Assembly: GCA_016771945.1 (NCBI GenBank)
Contig: QZLF01000002.1
Coordinates: 248,001-312,000 of the forward strand
Direction: 5' to 3'
Length of the DNA: 64,000 nt
From: Candidatus Leucobacter sulfamidivorax
GTDB lineage: Bacteria > Actinomycetota > Actinomycetes > Actinomycetales > Microbacteriaceae
Shown: one piece after another, positions 23,975 to 48,172 of the stretch
Layout: the number at the start of each line of letters is the position of its first letter
Position numbering within the stretch: position 1 is the stretch's first letter
The notes under the pieces: model-generated
Database searches by the model: none
What the model was told of the DNA's origin: nothing
Seen by the model: only the letters and a program-made list of their open reading frames with translations
Program-made: the position numbers and the translations under genes

Positions 23975-23997
23975 GGTGTCTCCTTCGTTTCAGAGTT

Positions 23998-29049: not shown

Positions 29050-29109
29050 TGCCGTCCTCGGAGATGCTGAGGGGAGAGGGGCGGGGCGGCTCGGGGCCGC
29101 CCCGCCGTC

Positions 29110-30099
29110 TCAGGAGGTGCGGATCATCTCGCTCGCGGGGATCTTGCCCTCGATGGCGCCGTACTTGGCGAAGACGTCGAGGAGCGGCTGCACCTGGTCG
29201 GCCTTGAGGGGGCCCACCTGGTACTCGCCGAGCGCGACGACCGGCGGTACCTGATCGTTGAGGCCGGTGTTCGGCACGAACTCCGCGACCTCCTCGAGGT
29301 TCTCGGCGGCGTAGGAGTAGGCCTCCTGGATCGCCGCCATGAACTGCGCGGTGATCTCGGGGTTCTCGTCCATGTACTCGATCGCGCCGATGAAGACCGC
29401 GCCCGGCGCGCCCGGGATGGTGAGATCGCCCGTGACGTAGCTGAGCACGTCCACCTTGCCGGTCTCGATCGCGGCCGAGAGGAAGGGCTCGTTCACGAAG
29501 GCGGCGTCGACCGTGCCGTCGGCCACGGCGTCGCCGATGGCCGGGAAGGGCACGGCGATCTTGGTGAGCGAGGCGTAGTCGCCGCCCAGCGCGTCGATGG
29601 TGAAGGCGTGCGAGGGATCGACCTCGGTCGAGTCGGCGGCCCAGGTCTCGATCTGGGAGGCCTCGGTGATGCCGGCCTCCTTGTTCACGATGACGGCCTG
29701 GTACTTCGAATCGGGATCGGTGGGGATCACGTTCGCCGCGCCGATCAGGCTGATCGGGATCCCCTTCTCGATCGCCTGCACCGCCGAGCCGAAGCCGGCC
29801 ATGCTGAACTGGGTCTGCCCGTTCAGGGTGTTCGGGATCGCCACGGCGCCGTCCTCGAGCACGACGAGCTCGACCTCGAGCCCGTGATCGGCGAAGACGC
29901 CGCGGTCGGCCGCGAGATACATCGGCGTCGAGGTGGCGGCTCCCGGGCTGACCGCCACGGTGAGCTTCACGAGCTCCCCCGAGCCGTCGGTCGCGGGGGT
30001 GTCGCCGCCGCTGTCGCCCCCGCCACCGCTGCTGCAGGCGCTCAGGGCGAGGACCGCCGCCGCGGCGACGGCGGACAATCGGATCAGTCGTGACTTCAT
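29110..30099 (-). CDS. NitT/TauT-type substrate-binding lipoprotein
   Basis: Solute-binding protein (SsuA/THI5/NMT1 type), 329 residues. The signal peptide ends in the lipobox ALSAC near residue 21, followed by a Gly/Ser/Asp-rich linker. The mature part has the type II binding-protein pattern: TVAVSPGAATSTPMYLAADRGVFADHGLEVELV, GQTQFSMAGFGSAVQAIEKG and VADGTVDAAFVNEPFLSAA, quoted here by segments. It delivers substrate to the two permeases upstream. Homologues carry sulfonates, nitrate, thiamine precursors or aromatic acids. An 88-base gap separates it from the ATPase gene. Confidence 0.88.
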   Translation of the reverse strand: MKSRLIRLSAVAAAAVLALSACSSGGGGDSGGDTPATDGSGELVKLTVAVSPGAATSTPMYLAADRGVFADHGLEVELVVLEDGAVAIPNTLNGQTQFSMAGFGSAVQAIEKGIPISLIGAANVIPTDPDSKYQAVIVNKEAGITEASQIETWAADSTEVDPSHAFTIDALGGDYASLTKIAVPFPAIGDAVADGTVDAAFVNEPFLSAAIETGKVDVLSYVTGDLTIPGAPGAVFIGAIEYMDENPEITAQFMAAIQEAYSYAAENLEEVAEFVPNTGLNDQVPPVVALGEYQVGPLKADQVQPLLDVFAKYGAIEGKIPASEMIRTS

Positions 30100-33525: not shown

Positions 33526-34905
33526 CTACCGCGCCCGCGCCTCGAAGATCGCGCCCGGGTTCATGATGCCCTGCGGGTCGAGCGCGTCCTTGATCTGCTG
33601 CCCGATCTCGAGCACGTCGGCGCCGATCTGACTCTCGAGCCACGGCCGCTTCAGCTTGCCCACACCGTGCTCGCCCGAGATCGTGCCGCCGAGCGACACC
33701 GCGAGCGACATGATCTCGCCGTACGCGGCCTCGGCGCGACGCTGCGCCTCGACGTCGGCGGGATCGAAGACGACGAGCGGATGCGTGTTGCCGTCGCCGG
33801 CGTGCGCGATGAAGGCGATCTCGGTGCGGTGCTGCGCGGCGATCCGCTCGATCCCGGCGATGAGCCCGCCGAGCCGGGGGATGGGCGCGCCGACGTCGGA
33901 GAGCAGCAGACGCCCGCGGGCCTCGACGGCCGGGATCGCGACCCGGCGCGCGTGCGCGAGCTGCTCGCCGCGCTCCGGGCTCGTCTCCTCGACGAGCGTC
34001 GCGCCGTGCCGTCCGAAGGCCTCGACCATGGTGGCGATGTCGCGGCCCGAAGGGTCGAGATCGTCGCTGCCGGCGAGCACGAAGGCCTCGGCCGAGCGGT
34101 CGAGCCCGAGGCCCAGCAGGTCCTCGACGGCGTTCACGGCGTTGCGGTCCATGTACTCGAGCAGGCTGGGGCGGATCGCGGCCGCGATCTCCCCGATCGC
34201 GGCCGCGGCCTGCGACGAGCTCGAGAACCAGGCCACGACGCGCCGCGGCGCCGGCGGAGCGGGCAGCAGCCGCACGATGATCTCGGTGACCACGCCGAGC
34301 GTGCCCTCGCTGCCGACGAAGAGCTTCACGAGCGACAGCCCCGCCACGTCCTTGACGAGCGGCCCGCCGAGACGGATCGCTCGGCCGTCGGCGAGCACCA
34401 CCTCGAGCCCGAGCACGTAGTCGACGGTCACCCCGTACTTCACGCAGCAGAGGCCGCCCGCGTTCGTCGCGATGTTGCCGCCGATCGAGCAGATGTCGAA
34501 GGAGGCGGGATCCGGCGGGTACCAGAGCCCGCGCTCGGCGACCGCCGCCTTCAGCTCCGAGTTCAGCAGCCCCGGCTGCACGGTCGCCGTGCGGGTCGCG
34601 GGATCCACCGTGACGGCGCGCATGCGCTCGGTCGAGAGCACGATGCCGCCGGCCACGGCGGTGGCGCCGCCCGAGAGGCCGGTGCCCATGCCGCGGGGCA
34701 CGATCGGCACGCCGTGCCGGGAGGCCCAGGCGACGACCGCCTGCACCTCGGCGGTCGAGCCGGGCAGGGCGACCGCGAGCGGTACGCCCGCCGCGGGGTC
34801 GAGGGCCCGGTCGCGACGGTAGGGCTCGATGTCCTCCGAGGCGGTGAGGACCGCGCCGGGCAGTAGCGCGGCGAGCTCCGCGAGCGCCTCGCCGCCCCCG
34901 CTCAC
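33526..34905 (-). CDS. FAD-linked glycolate/D-lactate oxidase, GlcD-like
   Basis: FAD-binding oxidoreductase of the GlcD/D-2-hydroxyacid dehydrogenase group, 459 residues. The PCMH FAD domain shows [16 protein letters not shown] near 70, [22 protein letters not shown] near 135 and [16 protein letters not shown] near 210. The C-terminal domain has [15 protein letters not shown] and [12 protein letters not shown] with the catalytic His residues. It would oxidise glycolate to glyoxylate, which the upstream malate synthase condenses with acetyl-CoA. GTG 34905 overlaps the malate synthase stop (GTGA). No GlcE/GlcF partners are present. Confidence 0.9.
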
Positions 34906-37088
34906 GATCCCTGCCGCTTCTTCGCGCGCCGCAGCGCATGCAGCAGCGGCTCGGTGTAGCCGTTCGGCTGCGCGGCGCCCTCGACGATCAGACGCCGGGC
35001 GGCCTCGAAGGCGATGCCGGGCTTGTCGCCCGAGGCGCCGAGCAGCGGCTCGTAGGCGGGGTCGCCCGCGTTCTGGCGATCCACCACCGCGGAGAGCCGG
35101 CGCAGGCTCTCGTCGACCTGCCCCTCGTCGATCACCCCGTGCGCGAGCCAGTTCGCGAGCAGCTGGCTCGAGATGCGCAGGGTGGCGCGATCCTCCATGA
35201 GCGCCACGTCGTGGATGTCGGGAACCTTCGAGCAGCCGACGCCCTGGTCGATCCAGCGCACCACGTAGCCGAGGATCGACTGCACGTTGTTGTCGACCTC
35301 GGTGGCGACGACCTCGGGCGTCAGATCGCCCTCGCCCGCGAGCGGGATCCCCAGCAGCACGTCGAGGCTGTCGCCGGGCAGCGCAGGCAGCGCCCGCCGC
35401 GCCGCGAAGGCGTCGAGCTCGTGGTAGTGGAGGGCGTGCAGGGTCGCGGCGGTCGGCGACGGCACCCAGGCGGTCGAGGCGCCCGACTTCACGTGTCCGA
35501 TCTTCTGCTCGAGCATGTCGTGCATGAGGTCGGGCATCGCCCACATGCCCTTGCCGATCTGCGCCCGGCCGTCGAGGCCGCAGTCGACGCCGATCGCGAC
35601 GTTGCGCCGCTCGTAGACGTCGAGCCACGGCCGCGTGCGGATCGCCCCCTTCGGCAGCATCGGACCCGCCCACAGCGAGGTGTGGATCTCGTCGCCCGTG
35701 CGGTCGAGGAACCCGGTGTTGATGAACACCACCCGCTCGCCCGCGGCGGCGATGCAGGCCGCGAGGTTCGCCGAGGTGCGGCGCTCCTCGTCCATGATGC
35801 CGATCTTCACGGTGTTCGCGGGCAGCCCGTAGAGGGCCTCGACCCGCCCGAAGAGCTCGGAGGCGAAGGCGGCCTCGTCGGGGCCGTGCATCTTGGGCTT
35901 CACGATGTAGACGGAGCCGGTGCGCGAGTTCCAGCCCGCGCTCGGGCCGCGCAGGTCGCCGAGCGCGCCGAGCACGGTCATGATCGCGTCGAGGATCCCC
36001 TCGGGCACCTCCGCGCCGTCGCGGTCGAGCACGGCGTCGGTGGTCATGAGGTGGCCGACGTTGCGGATGAAGAGGGTGGATCGCCCGGGCAGCGAAAGAG
36101 TGCCGCCGTCCGCGGCGCCGCCCGCGGCGATGTACTCGCGGTCGGGGTTCATCGCGCGGGTGAAGGTGCGGCCATCCTTCGCGACCTCCTCCCGCAGGGT
36201 GCCGTCGTTCAGTCCCTTCCAGTTGCGGTAGCCGAGGGCCTTGTCGTCCGCGTCGACGGCCGCGACCGAGTCCTCGAGGTCCATGATCGTGGTGAGCGCC
36301 GACTCCACGACGATGTCCTGCACGCCGGCCGCATCGGTGGATCCGATGGCCCCGCCGCGGTCGATCGCGATCTCGAGGTGCAGGCCGTTGTGGCGCAGCA
36401 GCACGGCGTTCGGAGCATCCGGGGCGCCGGCGTAGCCGACGAAGGCGTCCGGATCCACGAGCGCGGTCGTCGTGCCGTCCGCGAGGGCGACCGCGAGGGC
36501 GGCGTTCTCGACCGTGTACGCGGCTGCGTCGGCGTGCGAGCCGTAGGCGAGGGGCGCCGCGCGGTCGAGCAGGTCGCGGCCGAAGGCGATCACGGCCCTG
36601 CCGCGCGCGGGGTTGTACTCCGCGCCGGGGGCGAGCCGGCCCGTGCGATCGATCGCGTCGGTGCCGTAGAGCGCGTCGTAGAGGGAGCCCCAGCGGGCGT
36701 TCGCCGCGTTGAGGGCGAAGCGCGCGTTCAGCAGCGGCACCACGAGCTGCGGGCCGGCGAGGCTCGCGATCTCGGGATCGACGTTCTCGGTGGTGACGGC
36801 GACGGCGTCCGGCTCGGGCCGCAGGTAGCCGATCTCCTCGAGGAAGGCGCGGTACTCGGCGGGGTCCGGGACTCCGGGGCGGTCCCGGTGCCAGTCGTCG
36901 ATGCGGGCCTGCAGGGCGTCGCGCTCGGCGAGCAGCGCGCGGTTCCTCGGGGCGAGCTCGTGGACGATCCCGCTCACCCCCTGCCAGAAGGCGTCGGCGT
37001 CGAGGCCGTGCTCGGCGAGGGCCGCTTCCGCGAAGTCGGCGATGGGCGGTGCGACGGAGAGGTCCGCGCGTGCGAGGTGGTCGGTCAT
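34902..37088 (-). CDS. glcB: Malate synthase G
   Basis: Condenses glyoxylate with acetyl-CoA to malate; monomeric G isoform of 728 residues, the normal length. Seen: [17 protein letters not shown] (active-site acidic residues), [11 protein letters not shown], the substrate loop [29 protein letters not shown] and the C-terminal [25 protein letters not shown] 37088 has GGAGG seven bases ahead; ATG 37094 overlaps the previous stop (ATGA) but sits almost on that site. It forms an operon with the GlcG-like and GlcD-like genes, a compact route from glycolate to malate. Confidence 0.95.
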
Positions 37089-37090
37089 GG

Positions 37091-37513
37091 TCATGCCTCC
37101 GTTCGATCGGCGCCGAGCAGCGCCAGAGTTTCGGTCGCGACCGCGAGATCGACCGCGGGCGGGCCGCCCGCGACCCCGAGGCCGCCCACGTGCACGCCGT
37201 CGAAGACGAGCGGCAGGCCGCCAGCGATGCGGGTCAGCGTGCCGCCCGTGCCGAGCGGCAGCGCCACGGCGAGCGGTTCGGGCAGCTCGCTCGAGGGCTT
37301 GCCGGTCGAGGCGGAGGTCTTCGCCTTCCGTGTCGAGGTCTCGGCGCTGTGCGGGGTCGCGCCGTCGGCCATGCCGTAGGCGACGACCGTCATCGAGGGA
37401 TCGGCGACGGTCACGACGGGGCGGATGCCGTGCTTCGCGCCGACCTCCATGGCGAGGGCGACGGCGCGGGCGGCGGTCTCGTACGAGATCCGGGGCACGG
37501 TGATGTAGGTCAT
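37091..37513 (-). CDS. GlcG/HbpS-like protein
   Basis: Small protein of 140 residues with the GlcG/HbpS fold: [59 protein letters not shown] and the glycine-rich [20 protein letters not shown], given by segments. GlcG accompanies glycolate oxidase genes in many bacteria; its role is unproven, and relatives bind haem. ATG 37513 is the first Met of the conserved domain, with GAGAGAAC in front. The leader 37514-37633 is purine-rich on the transcribed strand, with several GAACGCG repeats. It is the first gene of the glycolate operon. Confidence 0.85.
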
Positions 37514-37633
37514 GTTCTCTCTCGTCTGCATTCTCTCGTTCGCGCTTTTTCGTCCGCGTTCTCCGCGTTCGCGTTCTTCCGTCCGGGTTCTCGCCCGGGT
37601 GCGGTCGACACGGCTCCGGGCGACGTGATCCAC

Positions 37634-37683
37634 GATACGGAGAATTCGACATCATGGAATTTTTATTCCGTATCATGGAATTT
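37634..37683 (+). promoter_or_regulatory. IclR promoter/operator cluster
   Basis: GATACGGA (37634-37641) and TCCGTATC (37667-37674) form an inverted repeat. ATCATGGAATTT occurs twice (37651-37662 and 37672-37683), exactly 21 bases or two helical turns apart. A -10-like TATCAT (37671-37676) ends seven bases before ATG 37684, suggesting a leaderless transcript. Confidence 0.6.
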
Positions 37684-38526
37684 ATGAGGACGAAGCGGAA
37701 GGATGCGGCGGAGAGCGCCGGGAGCACTGGGAGCGCCGGGAGCGGATCGGGGGCGGCGCGCGGCGACGGCGCGCAGTCGGGGACCGCCCCGACCGGCACC
37801 GTGCAGTCGGTCGAGCGGGCGTTCCACGTGCTCGAGGCGCTCGCCGACGCGGAGGGCGCGCTGCCGCTCTCGGAGCTCGCCGCGGCGACGCGCCTGCCCC
37901 AGCCCACGGCGCATCGCCTGCTGCGCACGATGGAGGAGCTCGGCTACGTGCGGCAGCTCGATACACGCAGCTATGCGCTCGGGCCCGGCCTCATCAGGCT
38001 CGGCAGCCGGGCGACGCCCCCGCTCGCCGCACGCGCGCAGCCGATCATGGTCGAGCTCGAGGAGATCGCCCGGGAGACCGTGAACCTCGCGGTGCTCGAC
38101 GGCGACCGCGTCGCCTACATCGGTCAGGTGCCGTCGCGGCACCAGATGCGCATGTTCACCGAGGTGGGCCGCCGTGTGCTGCCCCACTCGGCGGGTGTCG
38201 GCAAGGCGATCCTCTCGATGCTGCCCGAGACGCGGGTGCGCGAGATCGTCGGGCGCACCGGCATGCCCCGCTTCACCCCGACCACCATCACCGGGATCGA
38301 CGCGCTGATCGCCGATCTGCGGGAGAGCCGGCGGCGCGGCTTCGCCGTGGACGACGGCGAGCGCGAGGTGGGAGTGCGGTGCATCGCGGTGCCGGTGCCG
38401 GGAAGCGCACCGCCCGCGGCGCTCTCGATCTCGGGACCGAGCGCGCGCGTCGACGACGATCTCGCCCGCACCATCACCGACGCCCTGCTCGCGGCGGCCG
38501 CGCGTCTCGCCGAGGAGATCGGCTGA
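37684..38526 (+). CDS. IclR-family transcriptional regulator
   Basis: Regulator of 280 residues. A Ser/Gly/Ala-rich N-terminus leads into the IclR winged helix ([50 protein letters not shown]). The C-terminal effector domain has [61 protein letters not shown], quoted by segments. ATG 37684 is chosen for its leaderless geometry; two earlier in-frame ATGs fall inside the operator repeats and have no ribosome site. Divergent from the glycolate operon, it is the probable regulator of both; IclR relatives sense glyoxylate or aromatic acids. Confidence 0.88.
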
Positions 38527-39003: not shown

Positions 39004-40071
39004 ATGTCTAGCATCGCGCATACGCGCCCGTTTGTCGTCGGCGTAGACACCCACGCCAGGCACCACGTCTACGCCGTCCTCACCACCACCGGTGAGGTCC
39101 TCGATACGCGCGAGTTCCCGACTCATCGCGCGGGTATCGCCCGCGCGATCGCTTGGGCCGCCCGCCGTACCGGCGGTGATCTCGCAACACTCTGGGCGAT
39201 CGAGGGCACCGCTTCTTACGGGGCGCTCCTGACCGCAGCGGTCACCGCGACCGGATACCAGGTTGCTGAGGCCCCGCGCTTGGGCACGCATCGCGGGCAC
39301 GGGGTCGGGAAGTCCGACCCGCTCGACGCGCAGCGCATCGCGGCCGCTGTGCTCCCGCTCGATACCACCCAGCTGCGTGTCCCGCGCCTGGGAGACGGGA
39401 TACGGGCCTCGCTGCGGGTCCTGGTCGCGGCCCGCGACTTGATGACCGGTGAGCGGACCCGCAGCGTGAACGCGCTCACCGCGCTGCTGCGCATTCATGA
39501 CCTCGGGGTTGATGCGCGCCATCCGCTCACCGGCCCTGGGCTGCGGCAGGTGAGCGGATGGCGGGCCCGCAGCGAATCCCTGACGCACCAGATCGCTCGG
39601 ACGGAAGCGACCCGACTCGCGAAACGGGTCCGGGCACTCGATGACGAGTTGGCCCGGAATCTTGCACGACTGACTGAACTTGTCAGGGCGAGCGCGGCGG
39701 CGCCGTTGCTGGAGGAGCCCGGGTTCGGGCCGGTATCGCTCGCGATCTGCCTCACCGTGTGGTCACACCCCGGTCGGGTCCGGTCAGAGGCTGCGTTCGC
39801 GTCGCTCGCGGGTGTGAACCCGATCCCGGCGTCTTCGGGGAACACTGTCCGGTATCGACTCAACCGGGGCGGCGATCGGCGGTTGAATCGTGCTCTGCAC
39901 ATGGTCGCGCTTACTCGGATGACTCATGATGAACGGACCCGCGCGTATGTTGAGAAACGGCGGGCTCAGGGGCGGACCCTGAAAGAGATCCGGCGTGGCC
40001 TCAAACGCTATCTCGCCCGTCATGTGTACCGGGTACTCACCGCTGCCCAGCCCGCACCGTTACCGGCTTGA
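39004..40071 (+). CDS. IS110-family transposase (DEDD recombinase)
   Basis: Full-length transposase, 355 residues. The N-terminal RuvC-like domain shows the acidic tetrad: VVGVDTHARHH (Asp), LWAIEGTASYG (Glu), and GKSDPLDAQRIA (two Asp). A coiled middle part leads to the C-terminal Transposase_20 domain with EPGFGPVSLAIC, FASLAGVNPIPASSGNT (catalytic Ser region) and RGGDRRLNRALHMVAL. No frameshift or stop, so it looks active. Lies between the IclR gene and the SDR gene without visibly breaking either. Confidence 0.92.
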   Translation: MSSIAHTRPFVVGVDTHARHHVYAVLTTTGEVLDTREFPTHRAGIARAIAWAARRTGGDLATLWAIEGTASYGALLTAAVTATGYQVAEAPRLGTHRGHGVGKSDPLDAQRIAAAVLPLDTTQLRVPRLGDGIRASLRVLVAARDLMTGERTRSVNALTALLRIHDLGVDARHPLTGPGLRQVSGWRARSESLTHQIARTEATRLAKRVRALDDELARNLARLTELVRASAAAPLLEEPGFGPVSLAICLTVWSHPGRVRSEAAFASLAGVNPIPASSGNTVRYRLNRGGDRRLNRALHMVALTRMTHDERTRAYVEKRRAQGRTLKEIRRGLKRYLARHVYRVLTAAQPAPLPA

Positions 40072-40104: not shown

Positions 40105-40884
40105 TCAGACCGCGGTGTACCCCCCGTCGGCGGTGAAGACCGCACCGGTGATGAAGGACGCCGCGTCCGAGAGCAGGAACGCGACGACCCCCGAGAGCTC
40201 CTCGGGCTCGGCGATGCGGCCCTGCGGCGTGCCCTCCGCCATCGCCTCGAGCGCGGCGGGATCGTCGAGCCATCCGGTGAGGATGTCGGTGCGCACCGAG
40301 CCGGGCGCCACGACGTTGATGCGGATGCCCTGTCGCGCGTAGTCGATCGCCGCCGACTTGCTGAGCCCGACGACGCCGTGCTTGCTCGCGCAGTACGGGC
40401 CGATGCCCGGCGCGACGATGACGCCGCCGACCGAGGCCGTGTTGACGATCGCGCCGCCGCCCGCGCGCAGCAGCGCGGGGATCTCGTGCCGCATCGAGCG
40501 GTAGACCCCGCCGAGGTTGACGTCGAGGATGCGCGCGTACTCCTCGGGCTCCTGCTCATGCAGCGGGAGCGAGGGCCCCTGCGTGCCGGCGTTGTTGAAA
40601 GCGAGGTGGAGCGCGCCGAAGGTCTGCTCGGCGAACTCCACGGCCGCGCGCACGGAATCGTCGTCCGCGACATCCACGCGCACGGCGGTGGCCGCGCCTC
40701 CCTCGGCGACGATGCCGTCGGCGATCTCCCGGCAGGCGTCGAGCTTACGGGCGCCGAGCACGACCGAGGCCCCGCAGCGCGCGAGGTGGCGCGAGGCGGC
40801 GGCGCCGATGCCCTGGCTCGCGCCCGTCACGAGGCAGACCCTGCCGCTGAGATCCTGATGCCCCGGGGCGGGGATGGTGGTCAT
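40105..40884 (-). CDS. Short-chain dehydrogenase/reductase
   Basis: Classical SDR, 259 residues. The NAD(P) motif CLVTGASQGIGAAASRHLAR begins near residue 17, followed by LAFNNAGTQG, the catalytic Ser in NTASVGG, YCASKHGVVGLSKS (YxxxK) and the closing VAFLLSDAASFITGAVFTADGG. It has its own site (GAAAGGAACC) 44 bases after the FGGY kinase stop on the same strand, so it is probably the last gene of the TrpA-like/importer operon and may oxidise an alcohol of the imported substrate. Its 3' end is close to the IS110 right end. Confidence 0.9.
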   Translation of the reverse strand: MTTIPAPGHQDLSGRVCLVTGASQGIGAAASRHLARCGASVVLGARKLDACREIADGIVAEGGAATAVRVDVADDDSVRAAVEFAEQTFGALHLAFNNAGTQGPSLPLHEQEPEEYARILDVNLGGVYRSMRHEIPALLRAGGGAIVNTASVGGVIVAPGIGPYCASKHGVVGLSKSAAIDYARQGIRINVVAPGSVRTDILTGWLDDPAALEAMAEGTPQGRIAEPEELSGVVAFLLSDAASFITGAVFTADGGYTAV

Positions 40885-40928
40885 GATGGTTCCTTTCGAT
40901 GGAGCGGGAAGAAGAAGGGGTCGGCCCG

Positions 40929-42401
40929 CTACTCGGGCCGCATGCGCGCGTGCACCTCGCGCAGCGCCGCGTAGCTCTGCCGGTAGAGGGCGTAGAGCTC
41001 CTCGTAGCATGCGGAGTTGTCCGCCGACGGTTCGAAGACGGCGTCGTGGACCACCAGGCGGCGGGACGCGTCCCAGGGATCGGCGCCGGTGTCGACCGCC
41101 GCGGCGAACACGGCGGCCCCGACGACCGCGGTGTCCTTCTCCACGCTGCGGCGCATCTCGCGGCCGGTGACGTCGGCGACGATCTGGCACCACAGCGGCG
41201 ACTGCGAGCCGCCGCCCGACAGCGTGGCCACGGTCGAGGGCACGGAGGCCGCGACGTCGACGGCGTCCATCAGCTCGCGCGCCGAGCAGGCGATGCCCTC
41301 GAGCACCGCGCGCGACAGGTCGGCGAAGCCGGATCCTGCGCTGAGGCCCAGGAACCACCCCCGCACATCCGCGTCCCAGAGCGGCGCGCGCTCGCCGAGC
41401 AGATGCGGCGCGAACATGACGCCATTCGCACCGGGCGGCGAATCGGCCGCGGCGGCGATCACGTCGTCGATCGAGCGCCCGCTGATCCCGGCCCACCAGC
41501 GCAGCGAGTCGCCGCCCGACTGGGTGGGGCCCGCGTGCACCTGGCGTCCGCGGTACGGGGCGAAGTTCGCGACTCCCGGCCCCGAGGTCCCGCCGACCCC
41601 GACAGATCCGCCGATCACCGAGGTGCCGAGGATCACCATCGCGTCGCCGGGCTCCCGGAGGCCCGAGCCGAGGGTGTTGCCCATGCCGTCCATGCTCCCG
41701 GTCGCCATCGGGGTGCCCGCAGGGACCCCGTGCCAGTCCGCGAGCGTGCGGCCGACGACCTCCTCGGGCCACTGCAGCGGTGCCAGTCGCTCCGGTAGCC
41801 CCGGGGCCCCCGCGACGCCGAGCACGTAGTCGGGCACCGGCGTCGCGGTCTTGAACGAGGCGAAGGGGTCGGTGGCGACCGATCCGGTCAGCCGGGCGTT
41901 CACATAGTCCTTGGGGAACAGCACCCAGCGGGTGCGGGCCCACGCCGCGGGGTCGTTCGCCGCGAGCCAGAGCGCGCGCGGCACCGGGTTGGAGGCGTCG
42001 AGCGGATCGGGCGCGCCCCACTCCGCGATGCGGCCGGCCTCGCCGAGGCGCTCGTTGACGGCGTCGACCTCGGCCGCGCAGCGCACGTCCTGCCAGGAGA
42101 AGGCCTCGGTCACGGGCTCGAGGGCCTCGTCGACGAAGATGTGCGTGTCGACCTGGCTCGTGATGCCGATGCTGCGCACGGTGCCGAGGTCGACCGTCTC
42201 GGCGAGGGCCGCGACGCTCGCGTCCACCGCGTCGAACCACTCGCGCGCGTCCTGCACCGCCCAGCCCGGACGCGGCCTGCTGATCGCGTAGCCCTGCGAA
42301 CCGACCGCGAGCGACTCCCCGTTCTCGCCGAACGCGATCGCCTTCGTCGTCGTGCTGCCCACGTCGACTCCGATGTAGACGGCGGGTGTCTCAGTGCCCA
42401 T
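40929..42401 (-). CDS. FGGY-family carbohydrate kinase
   Basis: Sugar or polyol kinase of the xylulokinase/glycerol-kinase superfamily, 490 residues. N-terminal ATPase motif VYIGVDVGSTTTKAIAF; GITSQVDTHIFVD; GSMDGMGNTLGSG; LLGERAPLWDADVRGWFLGL; and the C-terminal adenosine motif LSGGGSQSPLWCQIVADV. The start overlaps the upstream TrpA-like gene by 11 bases. Kinase plus aldolase in one operon suggests that a hydroxylated side chain is phosphorylated before cleavage (inference). Exact substrate class cannot be told from sequence; relatives phosphorylate xylulose, ribulose, erythritol or autoinducer-2. Confidence 0.9.
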   Translation of the reverse strand: MGTETPAVYIGVDVGSTTTKAIAFGENGESLAVGSQGYAISRPRPGWAVQDAREWFDAVDASVAALAETVDLGTVRSIGITSQVDTHIFVDEALEPVTEAFSWQDVRCAAEVDAVNERLGEAGRIAEWGAPDPLDASNPVPRALWLAANDPAAWARTRWVLFPKDYVNARLTGSVATDPFASFKTATPVPDYVLGVAGAPGLPERLAPLQWPEEVVGRTLADWHGVPAGTPMATGSMDGMGNTLGSGLREPGDAMVILGTSVIGGSVGVGGTSGPGVANFAPYRGRQVHAGPTQSGGDSLRWWAGISGRSIDDVIAAAADSPPGANGVMFAPHLLGERAPLWDADVRGWFLGLSAGSGFADLSRAVLEGIACSARELMDAVDVAASVPSTVATLSGGGSQSPLWCQIVADVTGREMRRSVEKDTAVVGAAVFAAAVDTGADPWDASRRLVVHDAVFEPSADNSACYEELYALYRQSYAALREVHARMRPE

Positions 42402-43155
42402 CGAGCGCCCCTCTCAGGCTGTCGAGCAATCCGGTCAATTCTCGCTCGCCGCGCAGCGCCGCCGCCACGCACGCGGAGCCGACGATGACGCCGTCGGCTC
42501 CGAGCTCCACCGCGCGCCTGGCGTGCTCGGGGGTCGAGATGCCGAACCCGAGCGCGAGCGGCGCGGTCACGCCCTCCGCGCGCAGGCGCGCCAGCAGCTC
42601 CTCGTTGTCGGCTCCGACCTCGGGCCGCATGCCGGTCACGCCGGCCGCGGCCGCGACCATGACGTACGACTGCGCGCCGACCGCCTGCCGCACCTGCGCC
42701 GGGCTCGGGTCGTGGTCGAGGAAGGGGATGTCCAGCAGGCCGTGCGCCGCGGCGCGCGCGGGGATCCTCTCGGGATCCGCGTCGGGCAGCAGCAGGCCGC
42801 CGGCGCCGGACGCGGCGACCGCCGACAGGTAGGCGTCGTCCGGATCGCGCCGGTAGCTCATCCACACGGCCGCGGGGCCTCCCGCCGCCTCGAGCTGCCC
42901 GGCGAGCAGCTCTGACGCGCGCCGGGTGTCGACGCCGGACTCCACCGCGCGCCGCATCGAGTCGGAGATCGTCGGCCCGTCGAGCGTGGCTTCGCGCACG
43001 GGGATGCCGCATTCGACCACGTCGACTCCGCACCGCACGTACCGCTCGGCGGTCGCTGCCGCGCACGCGGGATCGCCGAGCGGCAGGTAGCAGATGAGCA
43101 CCGGACGGCCCGCGGCGCGCAGCGACGCCGCGCGCATGGGATCGGCGGCCGTCAC
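42391..43155 (-). CDS. Tryptophan synthase alpha-like lyase (orphan, copy 1)
   Basis: TIM-barrel protein of the TrpA family, 254 residues, with no TrpB nearby. Both catalytic acids of TrpA are kept: Glu48 in VVECGIPV and Asp59 in TLDGPTIS (E49 and D60 in Salmonella TrpA). The phosphate site is also kept: AAAGVTGMRPEV, LGFGISTPEHARRAVELGADG and VIVGSACV. TrpA splits indole-3-glycerol phosphate into indole and glyceraldehyde 3-phosphate; stand-alone homologues such as plant BX1/IGL do so without TrpB. Here, between an ATPase gene and an FGGY kinase gene, a related retro-aldol cleavage of an imported, phosphorylated compound is likely (inference). GTG start overlaps the ATPase stop. Confidence 0.87.
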   Translation of the reverse strand: MTAADPMRAASLRAAGRPVLICYLPLGDPACAAATAERYVRCGVDVVECGIPVREATLDGPTISDSMRRAVESGVDTRRASELLAGQLEAAGGPAAVWMSYRRDPDDAYLSAVAASGAGGLLLPDADPERIPARAAAHGLLDIPFLDHDPSPAQVRQAVGAQSYVMVAAAAGVTGMRPEVGADNEELLARLRAEGVTAPLALGFGISTPEHARRAVELGADGVIVGSACVAAALRGERELTGLLDSLRGALDGH

Positions 43156-43955
43156 GAGGAGTCCTCCGCGGAGGCGATCTGCGCGCCGATCGTGGAATCG
43201 CTCGCGGCGAGCTCCGGCCGCAGCAGTGAGCGGATCTCGTGCCGCAGCGGCACGAACGCCGGATCCGCGATCGTCTGGTCGAAGTCGCGCTCCCGGCCGA
43301 ACGGCACGTCGAACACGGCGCGGATGCGCGCCGGCCGGCTCGACATCACCACGACCTGGTCGGCGAGCAGCAGTGCCTCGTCGATGTCGTGCGTGACGAG
43401 CATCGTCGTGGTCGCGTTGCGCCGCACGATCTGCAGGAGTTCCTCCTGCAGATATCCGCGGGTGAGCGCGTCGAGCGCTCCGAACGGCTCGTCCATCAGC
43501 AGCAGCGTCGGCTCGAGCGCGAGACCGCGGGCGAGCGCCACGCGCTGCTGCATGCCTCCGCTGAGCTGATGCGGGTACTTGTCGCCGTGCTCCTCGAGGT
43601 GCACCAGTTCGAGCGCGGCGCGGGCGCGTTCCCGCCGCTCGGCCGCTCCTATGCCGATCTGCTCGAGGCTGAACTCGACGTTCGCCTGCACCTTGCGCCA
43701 GGGCAGCAGTCGCGGGCCCTGGAAGACGTAGGCGCTCGTCAGGTCCGCGCGTGCCAGCTCGATCGAGCCCGAGGTGACCTCGGTGAGGCCGGCCAGCAGG
43801 TTCAGCAGCGTCGACTTGCCGCAGCCGGAGGGCCCGATGATGGCGACCAGCGATCCCTCCTGCACCTCGAGGTTGATGTCCTCGAGCACCGGGAGGTCGG
43901 TCTTGGGGTAGGTCTTGCCCACCCCGCGAAAGCGGATCAGCGGCTCGGCGGTCAT
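43152..43955 (-). CDS. NitT/TauT-type ABC transporter ATP-binding protein
   Basis: ATPase of 267 residues. Walker A GPSGCGKST near residue 41, Q-loop in YVFQGPRLLPWRKV, signature [16 protein letters not shown], Walker B LLLMDEPFGALD, switch His in [10 protein letters not shown]. Energises the import of the substrate bound by the lipoprotein at 44780. It is coupled to the permease upstream (ATGA) and the TrpA-like gene downstream (GTGA), which ties the lyase physically to the transporter. Confidence 0.93.
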   Translation of the reverse strand: MTAEPLIRFRGVGKTYPKTDLPVLEDINLEVQEGSLVAIIGPSGCGKSTLLNLLAGLTEVTSGSIELARADLTSAYVFQGPRLLPWRKVQANVEFSLEQIGIGAAERRERARAALELVHLEEHGDKYPHQLSGGMQQRVALARGLALEPTLLLMDEPFGALDALTRGYLQEELLQIVRRNATTTMLVTHDIDEALLLADQVVVMSSRPARIRAVFDVPFGRERDFDQTIADPAFVPLRHEIRSLLRPELAASDSTIGAQIASAEDSS

Positions 43956-44776
43956 GAGGCCTCCTTCCGGTGGCGGGTGAGATAGCGCTCGACGGGACGG
44001 AAGATGCCGTACTCGAAGATCACGGTGAGCACGACGACCGAGAGGCCCCACATGAACACCGCCTTGGTGTCGAGCAGCTTGATGGCGGTGCTCACCTGGA
44101 AGCCGATGCCCGGGGCGCCCGTCAGGTACTCGGCGAACAGCGTGATCTGCCACGAGACGCCCAGCGCCACCCGGGCGCCGGCGAGGAAGTAGGGCACGAC
44201 CGAGGGCAGCACGATGGAGCGCATGATGACCGACTCGCGCGACTGATAGGCCCGCGCCATGTCGACGAGATCCTGGTCGATCGCCCGCGTGCCCTGGATG
44301 ACGTTGAGCAGGAAGTAGGTGATCGATCCCGCGATCGTCACCGCGATCACCGACGACTCGTTCGCTCCGAGCACGATGAGCGCCAGCGCGATCAGCACGA
44401 TGGTGGGCACCGTCTGCAGGAAGATGAGCGGGATGCGCGTCAGGTCCTCGGCGATCCTCGAGCGGCCGATCAGGATGCCGAGCGGCAGCCCGATCACCAG
44501 GACCGCGCCGAAGGAGATGACCATCTGCTGCAGGGTCGCCAGCACCTCGGCCGTCCACACGCCGCGGCTGAAGGCGTCCAGGAACGAGTCCCAGACCGCC
44601 GCCGGGGCCGGCAGCAGGTACGCGGGCAGCCGGGTGGCGGCGAGAGACCAGATGATGTAGATCACCACCACCGAGCCGACGACCCGGGTGGGCCGCAGCC
44701 ACCGCGCGCGGCTGGACCTGCCGCGCGCGGTGACCGCGGCGATCGCCGCAGTGCTCGGATTTGCAGCGTCGGACAT
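43952..44776 (-). CDS. NitT/TauT-type ABC transporter permease
   Basis: Membrane permease, 274 residues. A cytoplasmic N-terminus with several Arg residues is followed by six helices; the conserved FLQTVPTIVLIALALIVLG and the coupling loop ARAYQSRESVIMRSIVLPS are visible. It starts only 4 bases after the binding-protein stop and overlaps the ATPase gene. Single permease, so probably a homodimeric channel. Confidence 0.92.
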   Translation of the reverse strand: MSDAANPSTAAIAAVTARGRSSRARWLRPTRVVGSVVVIYIIWSLAATRLPAYLLPAPAAVWDSFLDAFSRGVWTAEVLATLQQMVISFGAVLVIGLPLGILIGRSRIAEDLTRIPLIFLQTVPTIVLIALALIVLGANESSVIAVTIAGSITYFLLNVIQGTRAIDQDLVDMARAYQSRESVIMRSIVLPSVVPYFLAGARVALGVSWQITLFAEYLTGAPGIGFQVSTAIKLLDTKAVFMWGLSVVVLTVIFEYGIFRPVERYLTRHRKEAS

Positions 44777-44779
44777 GTA

Positions 44780-45808
44780 TCAACCCGCCGATACGATGAA
44801 CAGCGACGCGGGATCCTTCGGAGCCTCCGCGATGAAGCCCGACTCCTGGAGCAGCGGATACAGCTCCGTCCAGGTCTCCACATCGCGCTGGCTCACGCGC
44901 TTCTGCTCCTCGGTCATGTCGGTGAGGTTCAGCACCTGGCCGACGAGCTCGAGCTGCTCCGGCGGCACGCCGCTCACCTCGCTGGCGACCGCGATGACCG
45001 TCGCGGGGTCCTCCTGGAAGAGCGTCCAGACCTCCTGCGTCACCTCGACGAGCGTCGCGATGAACTCGGGGTTCTGCTCGGCGAAGGCGGTGCTGGTGAT
45101 GAAGCCGCCGTTCATGACGCCCGGGTCGCCGAAGGCCTCCTCGAACGCCTGCTGCACGTTGAAGATCGGCGTGTAGCCGTCCTCCAGCAGCGGCGCGGTG
45201 GCGGGAGCCTCGAGGAACGCCGCGTCGACGCGGCCCTGCGCGAGCTCCTGCGCCGCCGCATCGGTCTCCACGAGCTCGAAGTACTCGTCGATCCGCTCCC
45301 CGGTCGCGGCCATCACCGCGGCCTGCTCGCCGCCGAAGCGGCTCGCCAGCGGCGCGATGGCGACGCGCTTCCCGGCGAGGTCCTCGATCGAGGTCGCCGT
45401 CGACCCCGGAGCGACCAGCAGTTCGGGGCCGGGCGTCCAGCGCGCCATCGGGAAGAAGTAGCTCGTGTCGATCCCGTACTGCTCCTTGATGCGCGGCTGG
45501 AACGACGGCACCGTCGTGATGACGTCGAGATCGCCGCGCCCGAAGGCGGGGACCTGCGTGGTCGCATCGAGCACGGTGAACTCGACGGTGTAGTCGGTGT
45601 CCGCGAAGAGCTCGTCGGACTTGCCCTGCATGTAGGCGTAGATGGGGTGGAACGGCACGTCGATGCCGACGACGACCTTCTCGGCGGCGGCATCCTTGAC
45701 GCCGGCGGGATCGTTCGCCCCGGAGTCGGCGTTGCCTGTGCATCCCGTGACCAGGGTGGTGATCGCCAGGGCCGCCGCGGCGGCGAGGGCGAAGCGTGAT
45801 TTCTTCAT
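44780..45808 (-). CDS. NitT/TauT-type substrate-binding lipoprotein
   Basis: Solute-binding protein of 342 residues. Signal peptide with lipobox LVTGC at about residue 23. The mature domain shows VVVGIDVPFHPIYAYMQGK, FGRGDLDVITTVPSFQ, ASRFGGEQAAVMAATGE and QGRVDAAFLEAPATAPLL, the two-lobed type II pattern. ATG 45808 follows GAGGAAACAGAA and overlaps the regulator stop by ATGA, an unusual direct coupling of a regulator with an exported binding protein. Substrate unknown. Confidence 0.88.
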   Translation of the reverse strand: MKKSRFALAAAAALAITTLVTGCTGNADSGANDPAGVKDAAAEKVVVGIDVPFHPIYAYMQGKSDELFADTDYTVEFTVLDATTQVPAFGRGDLDVITTVPSFQPRIKEQYGIDTSYFFPMARWTPGPELLVAPGSTATSIEDLAGKRVAIAPLASRFGGEQAAVMAATGERIDEYFELVETDAAAQELAQGRVDAAFLEAPATAPLLEDGYTPIFNVQQAFEEAFGDPGVMNGGFITSTAFAEQNPEFIATLVEVTQEVWTLFQEDPATVIAVASEVSGVPPEQLELVGQVLNLTDMTEEQKRVSQRDVETWTELYPLLQESGFIAEAPKDPASLFIVSAG

Positions 45809-46731
45809 TTCTGTTTCCTCACTGGTTTCTTGAGTGGTTCGGACTGAGCGGGTTGGTGTGCGGGGGGAGTGCGGGGCCGGGTGCGCCGGCCGCCTCGGAC
45901 GAAGGGCGTCGAGGCGTCGGTCACCTCGGGCGCGTCGCTCGTGAACATGAGGGAGACGCCGGGTCCGTCGGGGCGACGGTCCGCCGAGACCACGACCTTG
46001 TCGCCCGCGATGAGGGCGCGATCGTCGACGACGGCCCGTCCGCCGTCGTCGAAGGTGAGCCTGGCCGAGAGCAGCGCGGCGTCGCCCGGCCGGCGGCGCA
46101 GCATCTCGGCGGAATCCTCGTCGAGCAGGCTCGCCTGGAGCGTCTCGGTGGCATGGTCGATGCGGATGCCGAGGTCGGAGTACAGCACCTCGTAGAGCGA
46201 GCGGTTCTCGAGCACCGCGGCGTCGAGCCCGCCTCCGATCGCGGGGGGCAGGAGCGACGTCTGCAGCACGAGCGGCTCGTCGTCGACGTAGCGCAGACGC
46301 ACGAGCTCGAACGCCTCGTCGCTCGGCAGCGACATCCTCTTCTGCTCGATCGGCGACACCGTGACCAGTGTGTAGCCGAGCACCTCGGTGCGCAGCGAGC
46401 GGCCGGAGTCGGTGATCTGCGCGGCGAAGCTGGCGAGCGAGCCGAGCGGCAGCCGATAGGGCTGGCTGCGCACATAGGTGCCCTTGCCCTGCGTCGTCAT
46501 GACCAGCCCGCGCTCGACGAGCACCTGGATCGCCTGACGCACCGTCATCAGGGTGACGCCGAAGCTCTCGGCGAGCTCCTTCTGCGGAGGGAGCATCTCC
46601 CCGGGCTCGAGCTCCTGTTCGACGATCGCCAGTGCGATCGCGCGCGAGATCGCGATGTACTTCGGCAGCCCGTCGTCGCGGCGGAACGAGATGCTCGGGA
46701 GACGGAGGCCCGTGGGCTCGGGGCGGGTCAT
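45805..46731 (-). CDS. GntR-family regulator, HutC/UTRA subfamily
   Basis: Regulator of 308 residues. Winged helix at residues ~20-90 (PKYIAISRAIALAIVEQELEPGE, FGVTLMTVRQAIQVLVERGLV, TQGKGTYV). A UTRA/chorismate-lyase-like ligand domain follows (~105-260). The last ~40 residues are a basic Pro/Arg-rich tail not typical of the family. It is encoded inside the operon it probably controls, between the second TrpA-like gene and the binding protein, overlapping both by four bases. The palindrome at 47564-47575 is its most likely operator. Confidence 0.88.
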   Translation of the reverse strand: MTRPEPTGLRLPSISFRRDDGLPKYIAISRAIALAIVEQELEPGEMLPPQKELAESFGVTLMTVRQAIQVLVERGLVMTTQGKGTYVRSQPYRLPLGSLASFAAQITDSGRSLRTEVLGYTLVTVSPIEQKRMSLPSDEAFELVRLRYVDDEPLVLQTSLLPPAIGGGLDAAVLENRSLYEVLYSDLGIRIDHATETLQASLLDEDSAEMLRRRPGDAALLSARLTFDDGGRAVVDDRALIAGDKVVVSADRRPDGPGVSLMFTSDAPEVTDASTPFVRGGRRTRPRTPPAHQPAQSEPLKKPVRKQK

Positions 46732-47531
46732 CGCTCGACCTCCGCGTGACGCACGAGCGCGGGGGAGAGGTCGTCGATGACCGCCGTCGTCTGCTCGGCA
46801 CCGCTCTCCGCGGCCGACACGAGACGGGTGCCGACGATCGCGCCGTCCGCACCCGCCGACATCACGACGATGGCCTCCGCGTACCCCCGGACGCCGAAGC
46901 CCACGAGCACGACGTATGGCTTGCCGTCCATCGCCTCGGCGAGTTCGCCCAGGCGCTCCCGAGCCTTCTCGGGGTTGAAGGCGCCGCCGGTCTGCAGGTC
47001 GGCCGATTGCAGGTAGATGATCGGATCGGGCAGGATGCCCGAGGCGATCAGCTCGAGATCCTCCTGCAGGTGCAGGAAGACCACCGCGTCGATGCCGAGT
47101 TCGCGCGCGCGAGCGCCGAGCGCGAGCTGATCGGCCACGGGGGTCTGGGGGAGGAGGAAGGCGTCGATGTCGGCGGCCGACAGCGCCTCGAGGAATCCTT
47201 CGGGCGTGATCTCGTCGAGCGTGCGCGCATAGGCGAGCCCGATGATAGTGTCGCCCGGATGGCGCCGGCTCGCAGCGGCGAGCCGCAGCGCCTCGTCGAC
47301 CGTCTTCGTGCGCTCCGAGGCCTGCAGCGCGGCGCGCTGGATGAGCGGCCCGTCGAGCTCCGGAGCCGGACCCGGCATGCTCACCTCGAGCGCGTCGAGA
47401 CCGGCTTCGAAGGCGGCGCCGACGGCCTCGGCGAACCCCTCGGGATCCGGGAAGCCGGAGGGCAGGAAGCCGACGAGGATGCCGCGCTGTTCTTCGCGAG
47501 CCTGGGCGATCCGTGTCCGCAGACGTGTCAT
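46728..47531 (-). CDS. Tryptophan synthase alpha-like lyase (orphan, copy 2)
   Basis: Second TrpA-family TIM barrel in the operon, 267 residues, clearly divergent from copy 1. With ATG 47531 the catalytic residues fall at exactly Glu49 (ALEVSMPG) and Asp60 (ELDGPLIQ), as in TrpA. The phosphate site remains in LVGFGVRGYAEA and GADGAIVGTRLV. Residues that contact TrpB and the indole pocket are not obviously kept (for example QSADLQTGG replaces the GVTG loop). ATG 47531 has AAAGGAAC upstream; ATG 47558 lacks a site but could be used on a leaderless RNA. First gene of the operon. The pair may process two related intermediates or form a heteromer (inference). Confidence 0.85.
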   Translation of the reverse strand: MTRLRTRIAQAREEQRGILVGFLPSGFPDPEGFAEAVGAAFEAGLDALEVSMPGPAPELDGPLIQRAALQASERTKTVDEALRLAAASRRHPGDTIIGLAYARTLDEITPEGFLEALSAADIDAFLLPQTPVADQLALGARARELGIDAVVFLHLQEDLELIASGILPDPIIYLQSADLQTGGAFNPEKARERLGELAEAMDGKPYVVLVGFGVRGYAEAIVVMSAGADGAIVGTRLVSAAESGAEQTTAVIDDLSPALVRHAEVER

Positions 47532-47563
47532 TCGGGGTTCCTTTGACTGGTTCTTCATCGAAC

Positions 47564-47575
47564 TGTTCTAGAACA
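47564..47575. promoter_or_regulatory. Operator palindrome of the TrpA-like operon
   Basis: TGTTCTAGAACA, a perfect 12-bp palindrome, extended imperfectly to ACTGTTCTAGAACACT. It overlaps a TAGTGT -10-like box on the minus strand and lies 33 bases before ATG 47531. The form fits HutC-type GntR sites. Confidence 0.65.
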
Positions 47576-47625
47576 CTAGATCAGATCGCGATCCGCCGTC
47601 AAGCCTCCGAAACCCCTCGGAACGG

Positions 47626-47660
47626 CGGAGGGCCCCTCGCATCGCGCGAAGGGCCCTCCG
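47626..47660 (-). terminator. Terminator of dps
   Basis: CGGAGGGCCC (47626-47635) pairs perfectly with 47651-47660 over a 15-base loop, just downstream of the dps stop on the minus strand. Separates dps from the TrpA-like operon. Confidence 0.75.
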
Positions 47661-47683
47661 AGTGCCGGCGGATCCGGCGGTTC

Positions 47684-48172
47684 CTACTCGGCGAAGTGCG
47701 AGAAGAGGAACCAGCGATCCTTGTCGAGCTGCTGCGCGATCGCGATGGCGAGGTCCTGGCTCACCGGATCGACCTCCTCGAGACCGTCGACGGCGCGGTA
47801 GACGGTCGCGAGCGCGGCGTCGAGCTGGGCGACGACCTCGCGCACGGTGACCTCCCACTGCTGGAAGCCGGGCTTCAGCTCCGGGGTCGAGGTGCGGCTC
47901 GCCACGGTGCCGATGCGGCCGTCGACCGGCAGCCCGAGGGCGATGATGCGCTCGGCGGCGGTGTCGGCGGCCTCCTGCGCGTGCTCCACGACCTGGTCGA
48001 GGAACTCGTGCACGCCGACGAAGTTGACGCCGCGCACGTGCCAGTGCGCCTGCTTGCCGTTGACCGCGAGCGCGATCAGGTCGTGCACGACGGGGGCGAG
48101 GTACTGGGCGACCCCGGTCGGGCGGTTGACGTCGCCCTGCGCGGCGGGCACCTGGGTCTCGTGAATGGACAT
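47684..48172 (-). CDS. dps: DNA starvation/stationary phase protection protein Dps
   Basis: Ferritin-like dodecamer protein of 162 residues that oxidises Fe2+ and shields DNA. The intersubunit ferroxidase residues are visible in QAHWHVRGVNFVGVHEFLDQ and HAQEAADTAAERI (His, His, Asp, Glu). The C-terminal QQLDKDRWFLFSHF is typical. ATG 48172 begins the protein; GGAGG lies ten bases upstream. It is separated from the TrpA-like operon by a terminator, so it is an independent unit. Confidence 0.93.
   Translation of the reverse strand: MSIHETQVPAAQGDVNRPTGVAQYLAPVVHDLIALAVNGKQAHWHVRGVNFVGVHEFLDQVVEHAQEAADTAAERIIALGLPVDGRIGTVASRTSTPELKPGFQQWEVTVREVVAQLDAALATVYRAVDGLEEVDPVSQDLAIAIAQQLDKDRWFLFSHFAE

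Follow-up and report, generated by a model that had tools for sequence, protein, structure and literature searches.

A rare kinase–TrpA lyase operon occurring in two versions, which are joined in Candidatus Leucobacter sulfamidivorax

The 64,000-nt window analysed here (the whole stretch of Candidatus Leucobacter sulfamidivorax DNA under study, from contig QZLF01000002.1 of a 3.84 Mb genome in 11 contigs, G000; all positions given are window positions unless a locus is named) carries an operon in which two TrpA-family proteins, TrpA1 and TrpA2, are encoded together with a GntR-type regulator, an ATP-binding cassette (ABC) importer and an FGGY kinase. It is a conserved, rare kinase–TrpA lyase operon that exists in two versions, and both versions are joined in the window. 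The function that we tentatively prefer, judging from sequence, is that of a GntR-controlled catabolic operon, whose products would import a compound, phosphorylate it with the FGGY kinase and cleave it by TrpA-type chemistry into glyceraldehyde 3-phosphate and indole or a close analogue.

Eight packed open reading frames (ORFs) run on the minus strand from 47531 down to 40105. The gene order of the original prediction was confirmed by these ORFs and by their Pfam matches, all of which score above the cut-offs of their families: PF00290 (twice), GntR with UTRA, NMT1 and Phosphonate-bd, BPD_transp_1, ABC_tran, FGGY_N with FGGY_C, and adh_short. The features are listed below, with identities to the operons of relatives described further on.

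47566..47579, minus strand: candidate operator CTAGTGTTCTAGAA, presumed GntR site; exact, just before the first gene
46728..47531, minus strand: TrpA1, TrpA-family lyase of subfamily 1; the ORF opens at 47558
45805..46731, minus strand: GntR/UTRA regulator; 61–70% identity to GntR of five TrpA1 operons and 36–40% to that of two TrpA2 operons
44780..45808, minus strand: solute-binding protein (SBP), NMT1/SsuA-like; lipoprotein signal by eye; 53–54% to the SBP of two TrpA2 operons
43952..44776, minus strand: NitT/TauT-type permease; 61–62% identity in TrpA2 operons
43152..43955, minus strand: NitT/TauT-type ATPase; 59–65% identity in TrpA2 operons
42391..43155, minus strand: TrpA2, TrpA-family lyase of subfamily 2; 47–52% identity to TrpA2 of genomes G785 and G1221
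40929..42401, minus strand: FGGY kinase of type a, xylulokinase-like, with FGGY_N and FGGY_C; 45–47% to kinases of TrpA2 operons
40105..40884, minus strand: short-chain dehydrogenase/reductase (SDR) of type 2, accessory; relative in the G785 operon, at 56% and 54% identity in two separate frames

In gene order, the junctions measure -4, -4, +3, -4, -4, -11 and +44 bases, with gaps only between SBP and permease (3 bases) and between FGGY kinase and SDR (44 bases); the remaining neighbours overlap by 4–11 bases. The start of TrpA1 is likelier at 47531 than at 47558, judged by eye from a ribosome site before 47531 and from relatives that align from this position, and it yields the E49/D60 numbering of the original prediction. 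A promoter and terminator scan of 47500–47750 found none.

Both TrpA-like proteins belong to the TrpA family, with PF00290 scores of 104.6 and 112.3 bits (cut-off 27). Their retention of the catalytic Glu and Asp and of the phosphate site, claimed earlier, is borne out by an alignment of 7 TrpA1, 3 TrpA2 and 35 canonical TrpA proteins (residue numbers are E. coli TrpA equivalents). E49, D60, Y102, T183, G211, G213 and G234 are retained in all the TrpA1 and TrpA2 sequences, and the glycine-rich phosphate site is present in both window proteins. Retro-aldol chemistry can be inferred from the conserved E49, D60 and T183 together with this phosphate site. For TrpA, protonation of indole C3 by E49 and deprotonation of N1 by D60 are described in PMC12930369.

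The two proteins thus share with TrpA of tryptophan synthase its fold, its E49, D60 and T183 and its phosphate site. Unlike it, they lack an adjacent trpB gene, as originally noted for this operon: neither the window nor any of 8 relative loci gave a hit (E 1e-3) to the 92-residue C-terminus of E. coli TrpB. The genome has three PF00290 genes, namely TrpA1, TrpA2 and a canonical trpA on contig C4 with trpB directly upstream. Loop-2 D56 is another difference; it is invariant in 35/35 canonical TrpA, replaced by A or P in 7/7 TrpA1 and by E in the window TrpA2, and retained by the two TrpA2 outside the window. In the tree of the aligned proteins, TrpA1 and TrpA2 form separate deep clades, apart from the 35 canonical TrpA; the branch of E. 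coli TrpA is very long, and its grouping with TrpA2 (80/23) is untrustworthy. TrpA1 is 31% identical to the canonical TrpA of its own genome, and TrpA2 is 32–42% identical to canonical TrpA among the matches listed. The plant stand-alone indole-3-glycerol phosphate lyases BX1/IGL also have the catalytic E49 and D60. The window proteins differ from these in being bacterial, in their proposed catabolic setting, in their kinase and importer partners and in the M175 of TrpA2.

The relatives of this operon are few and fall into two modules. For TrpA1, a pattern scan of an 84,980-species collection yielded six loci besides the window, in Leucobacter massiliensis, two Tessaracoccus, Alpinimonas psychrophila (G473), Microbacterium resistens and a Pseudonocardia metagenome-assembled genome (MAG; G1068). 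Searches at E<=1e-25 found TrpA1 in 2/299 genomes of the family, G473 and the window's own, and in 1/396 across the phylum, again the window's own. Five of the six relatives share the order TrpA1, GntR, RbsA-like ATPase, RbsC-like permease, FGGY kinase (type b) and RbsB-like SBP, with L036 representing Alpinimonas, while the sixth locus (L042, Pseudonocardia MAG) is an 8.2 kb metagenome scaffold with a GntR remnant after TrpA1. In the five non-MAG genomes, PF00290 matches TrpA1 and one stronger hit that groups with canonical TrpA; in the Pseudonocardia MAG, which may be incomplete, it matches the TrpA1-like gene only, with no canonical trpA.

The second module was reached through the kinase and TrpA2. 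The window kinase (E<=1e-85, 296 phylum genomes) has one relative besides itself, in G785, and the TrpA2 pair, run at E<=1e-40 against 249 genomes from the class of G785, returned G785 and G1221. Both of these have GntR, SBP, permease, ATPase, TrpA2 and FGGY kinase (type a) in the order of the window, without TrpA1. The window operon therefore joins both modules, since its GntR is of the kind seen in the TrpA1 module, and its importer, TrpA2 and kinase are of the kind seen in the TrpA2 module; this kinase is 28–34% identical to those of two TrpA1 operons compared. This joining of modules found apart elsewhere goes beyond the original prediction, as does the operator at 47566–47579. The pairing of the two lyases is a peculiarity of the window (1/9 loci), each occurring alone in the others. 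Lyases unlinked to transporters in other genomes were the refuting outcome named in the original prediction, and the relatives did not bear it out: lyase, ABC importer and FGGY kinase share one gene run in seven of eight relative loci, the eighth being the short scaffold L042. The operon is not a chance assembly, as other genera show the same neighbouring genes together with the same operator motif.

More distant matches were also inspected. TrpA2 matches 282 of 396 genomes of the order at E<=1e-20 (its own at 2e-160, the next best at 6e-32), and the next-best 29 were rejected as TrpA2 relatives because the tree places them among canonical TrpA. On plasmids, TrpA1 and TrpA2 gave distant matches only (28 and 20 records, all below 60% identity and mostly annotated trpA), and the window SBP had no match in the plasmid search. 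Around the two best plasmid FGGY relatives inspected, out of 726 records (Rhizobium sp. BG6 and Burkholderia arboris), stretches of 10 and 6 kb were free of TrpA-like genes.

Two TrpA1 operons have further neighbours directly upstream. In Leucobacter massiliensis (L037, 3022–9804, plus strand) there is a NitT/TauT-like importer, with SBP, permease and ATPase 26%, 27% and 41% identical to those of the window, and the same stretch holds two further membrane proteins, transporters by eye. In Alpinimonas (L036, 5178–9523, plus strand), the genes are likely those of a methylcitrate cycle: MmgE/PrpD, a phosphoenolpyruvate mutase family member and citrate synthase.

The two modules are tied by a shared operator motif. 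Exact CTAGTNNTCTAGAA stands directly before the first gene in the window and at L036, L037, L038, L040, L041, L058 and L066. A search of nine genomes that allowed one mismatch found the exact motif in eight of them, a single time each and at the operon; in the Pseudonocardia MAG the only site has one mismatch and lies away from the operon. G473 has a further site with one mismatch, and G1221 has two (one overlapping the exact site). The motif is the sole match in the window at up to two mismatches, a laxity at which 31/100 shuffles also hold one, and the reversed pattern at up to one mismatch gave more matches than the motif (0–11 per genome and strand versus 0–2). The case for an operator therefore rests on the position of the eight exact sites and not on rarity. 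GntR presumably binds the CTAGTNNTCTAGAA motif. Since the two modules have this motif in common and their regulators are related, they may respond to a single class of inducer.

The original prediction spoke only of a second product of cleavage. There is now some support for identifying it as indole or a close analogue, since an indole-type monooxygenase is encoded in both of the other TrpA2 operons. In G1221, TrpA2 and FGGY kinase are followed in the same run by an SDR and a group-E monooxygenase. In G785, the genes after FGGY are an SDR and a monooxygenase, then a second Smoa_sbd match accompanied by a flavin reductase and, split over two frames, a relative of the window SDR. The G1221 monooxygenase lies below the NCBI StyA cut-off (229 versus 550 bits), and the PDB entry that it matches best is 7z4x (E 2.9e-182; the styrene monooxygenase 3ihm reaches 4.9e-43), which we take to be VpIndA1 of Variovorax paradoxus, an enzyme first named VpStyA1. 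Formation of indigo from indole by VpStyA1 is described in PMC6017014, and PMC13101512 gives S46-Q48-M50 as the fingerprint of indole monooxygenases versus N46-V48-H50 for styrene. S-Q-M occupies these first three positions in five of seven aligned group-E enzymes, found in the G785 and G1221 operons and in islands of G000 and G473; the later three fingerprint positions were compared by eye only. The remaining two, from Leucobacter massiliensis and from locus L063 of the window's genome, have the styrene-type N-V-H.

In the window's own genome, indole genes occupy an unlinked island (L062, 5848–18270, G000:C3) with an SDR, an indole-type monooxygenase (a relative at 59–62% identity), a flavin reductase, an isatin hydrolase (5nnb match, E 3.6e-76) and a bifunctional salicylyl-CoA-type hydroxylase/oxidoreductase (1189.9 bits, cut-off 1078), presumably of the anthraniloyl-CoA type. 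Alpinimonas has a similar island (L073), its isatin hydrolase and hydroxylase being 82–84% identical. A group-E monooxygenase, flavin reductase and SDR adjoining one another, seen in both islands and not in the window, are also a feature of the iif/ind clusters of Acinetobacter and Cupriavidus (PMC6221969). Unlike those clusters, the islands hold isatin hydrolase and the CoA-type hydroxylase, and in two genomes SDR and monooxygenase follow an import–kinase–TrpA2 module. The same review does not settle if indole breakdown truly passes through isatin, a question on which the L062 island bears.

The indole-type monooxygenase is present in 3/3 TrpA2 genomes, within the operon itself in two, so the indole reading for TrpA2 is reasonably supported; for TrpA1, with such an enzyme in its own genome and in one of six relatives, it is weak. 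At E<=1e-20, PF17885 has matches in 6 of the 160 family genomes searched; at E<=1e-40 only G000 and G473 are left, and these are the only two TrpA1 carriers (E<=1e-25) among the 299 family genomes drawn; the association figure, 1/C(160,2) = 7.9e-5, is post hoc, and the 160 genomes may or may not be a subset of the 299. Among 149 genomes of the class of G785, two match at E<=1e-20 and one, G785, at E<=1e-40. Four of the eight relatives match (G785, G1221, Alpinimonas and Leucobacter massiliensis), and at E<=0.001 there is no match in the two Tessaracoccus, M. resistens or the Pseudonocardia MAG. Control genomes gave 0/14 monooxygenase matches, or 2/14, below cut-off, at a laxer E<=1.

Two further monooxygenase loci were seen. 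The window's genome has a second group-E enzyme (L063, 9321–10862, minus strand, G000:C1), 51% identical to that of Leucobacter massiliensis. G785 has another indole-type monooxygenase with an SDR (L075, 9426–19043, G785:C2) near apparent trp genes (TrpG-like by eye, and a TrpA match).

The sequence of import, phosphorylation and lyase cleavage, as first proposed, is still the best reading of the operon. Gene content, catalytic residues, neighbourhoods, the operator motif and co-occurrence with indole genes are observed directly; the reaction steps, substrate, inducer and GntR binding are derived from them. The ABC importer would take up a compound in which a glycerol-like side chain is attached to an indolyl or closely related aryl group. 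NMT1-family binders of riboflavin or thiamine precursors exist, and by analogy a heteroaromatic bearing a polyol chain could be a fitting ligand for the NMT1-type SBP. The FGGY kinase would phosphorylate the terminal hydroxyl, and TrpA2, working without TrpB, would split the product in a retro-aldol reaction like that of TrpA; TrpA1 would probably do likewise, on the same or a stereoisomeric substrate. Glyceraldehyde 3-phosphate would pass to glycolysis. A VpIndA1-type indole monooxygenase would oxidise the aromatic product; two relatives have its gene within the operon itself, and the window's genome has it in the unlinked island. Monooxygenase and SDR would act together in this oxidation, on the analogy of the iif clusters (PMC6221969).

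The SDR, which the original prediction had oxidising an alcohol group, does not belong to the core: there is none inside the five TrpA1 operons, Leucobacter massiliensis having a 41% SDR about 2.5 kb beyond its operon on the other strand. The window SDR is accessory and outside the core, and the SDRs of TrpA2 operons may serve indole oxidation, not the side chain. Indole-3-glycerol as the substrate is a guess. The fuller scheme is a scavenging route that would use the final branch of tryptophan synthesis catabolically. The scheme, in which extracellular indole-3-glycerol would be imported, rephosphorylated by a dedicated FGGY kinase to indole-3-glycerol phosphate and split by two independent stand-alone TrpA-family lyases into glyceraldehyde 3-phosphate and indole, with indole degraded via isatin and anthraniloyl-CoA, appears unlikely as a whole, at about one chance in four.

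Several findings weigh against an indole-releasing pathway, whose strongest competitor, a sugar or polyol route, is a possible but doubtful explanation. In this alternative, the FGGY kinases would produce the phosphate of a ketose or deoxy-sugar, from which the TrpA-fold enzymes, as plain aldolases, would release glyceraldehyde 3-phosphate and a small carbonyl compound, the link of TrpA2 to indole being coincidental or later. The CUT2 importers, the xylulokinase scores, the lack of an indole-type monooxygenase in 5/6 TrpA1 relatives and the remodelled pockets, all detailed below, speak for it. Sugar operons of the kinase–aldolase kind (fuculose, rhamnulose) combine importer, FGGY kinase, aldolase and local regulator. 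The present operons resemble them in importer, kinase and regulator, and differ in that the proposed aldolase has a TrpA fold. TrpA1 is usually accompanied by a CUT2 sugar-type importer (five operons; ribose/allose-like), which argues for a sugar-like ligand, and indole-3-glycerol would fit both importers only loosely. FGGY kinases of both types score best as xylulokinases, not as aryl-polyol kinases (for the window kinase, XylB is the best NCBI model at 251.4 bits, below the cut-off of 380.25). An indole-type monooxygenase is present in just one of the six TrpA1 relatives, Alpinimonas, the Leucobacter enzyme being of another subfamily with N-V-H; the association with PF17885 is weakened because the TrpA1 carriers Leucobacter massiliensis and Microbacterium resistens (tree label Microbacteriaceae) lack the indole-type enzyme. 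Only three TrpA2 operons were found in this analysis (window, G785 and G1221), and the indole island of the window's genome is without the operator, even at one mismatch. The pockets, too, are remodelled and differ from those of TrpA and BX1. In 3/3 TrpA2, Y175 is replaced by M; TrpA2 carries D/E-H-D at 155–157 and retains loop-6 G181. TrpA1 has Q for D130 (7/7) and a remodelled loop 6, with G181 replaced by L or V and Y175 retained. Against a sugar or polyol route stand the indole-type monooxygenase in the same run in two TrpA2 operons, its rarity (2/160 and 1/149 genomes at E<=1e-40), and the retention in all ten proteins of E49 and D60, with their published indole C3 and N1 roles (PMC12930369).

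Split roles for the two lyases are improbable. TrpA2 would then be the indole-releasing lyase, and TrpA1 an isomerase, epimerase or lyase for another phosphorylated compound, merely sharing GntR. Their separate clades and solitary occurrence at other loci speak for such a division, as do D at A180 and Q at D130 in 7/7 TrpA1, both missing from 3/3 TrpA2; the Q at 177 of TrpA1 is also found in two TrpA2. On the other side, both module types have the same operator motif and a related regulator, and Alpinimonas combines TrpA1, its sole non-canonical TrpA, with an indole island. A salvage function, in which released indole would feed the cell's own TrpB for tryptophan synthesis rather than degradation, has very little probability. 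It agrees with the trpB of the window's genome and with the lack of an indole-type monooxygenase in most TrpA1 relatives, but conflicts with the indole-oxidation islands of the window's genome and Alpinimonas and with the monooxygenase inside two TrpA2 operons. Ordinary duplicated trpA genes, placed by chance in a transporter operon, can practically be dismissed: TrpA2 (P0006) passes the NCBI trpA equivalog TIGR00262 narrowly (104.0 bits, cut-off 102.35), but TrpA1 (P0001) falls below it at 80.2 bits, the clades lie deep and apart from canonical TrpA, and the neighbourhoods are conserved across other genera.

If the preferred pathway of import, phosphorylation and indole-releasing cleavage is true, it would give a bacterial stand-alone TrpA-family lyase a catabolic job, reveal two separate TrpA-fold subfamilies encoded away from TrpB, and open a new kinase–lyase route into indole degradation, that is, a new microbial use of indole compounds. 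Indolyl- or aryl-glycerols would then be an overlooked natural nutrient, for which the operon supplies a binding protein, a kinase and a regulator. No account of this pathway appears in the titles and abstract openings of the open-licence matches listed for TrpA, FGGY, indole-3-glycerol and indole monooxygenase.

Around the operon, an IS110-like transposase ORF (family by eye; 39004–40071, plus strand) lies on the opposite strand to the SDR and has its end 33 bases beyond the SDR stop codon. The window operon may be rearranged, because monooxygenase genes separate the kinase from this SDR in G785. Further along (23072–30099, minus strand) lies a possible sugar-acid pathway with an FAH-family hydrolase, a xylose-isomerase-like TIM barrel, an IlvD/Edd dehydratase and an NMT1-type binding protein. 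A glyoxylate module at 34902–38526 comprises malate synthase G and a HbpS/GlcG-like protein, divergent from a regulator that is IclR-like by eye.

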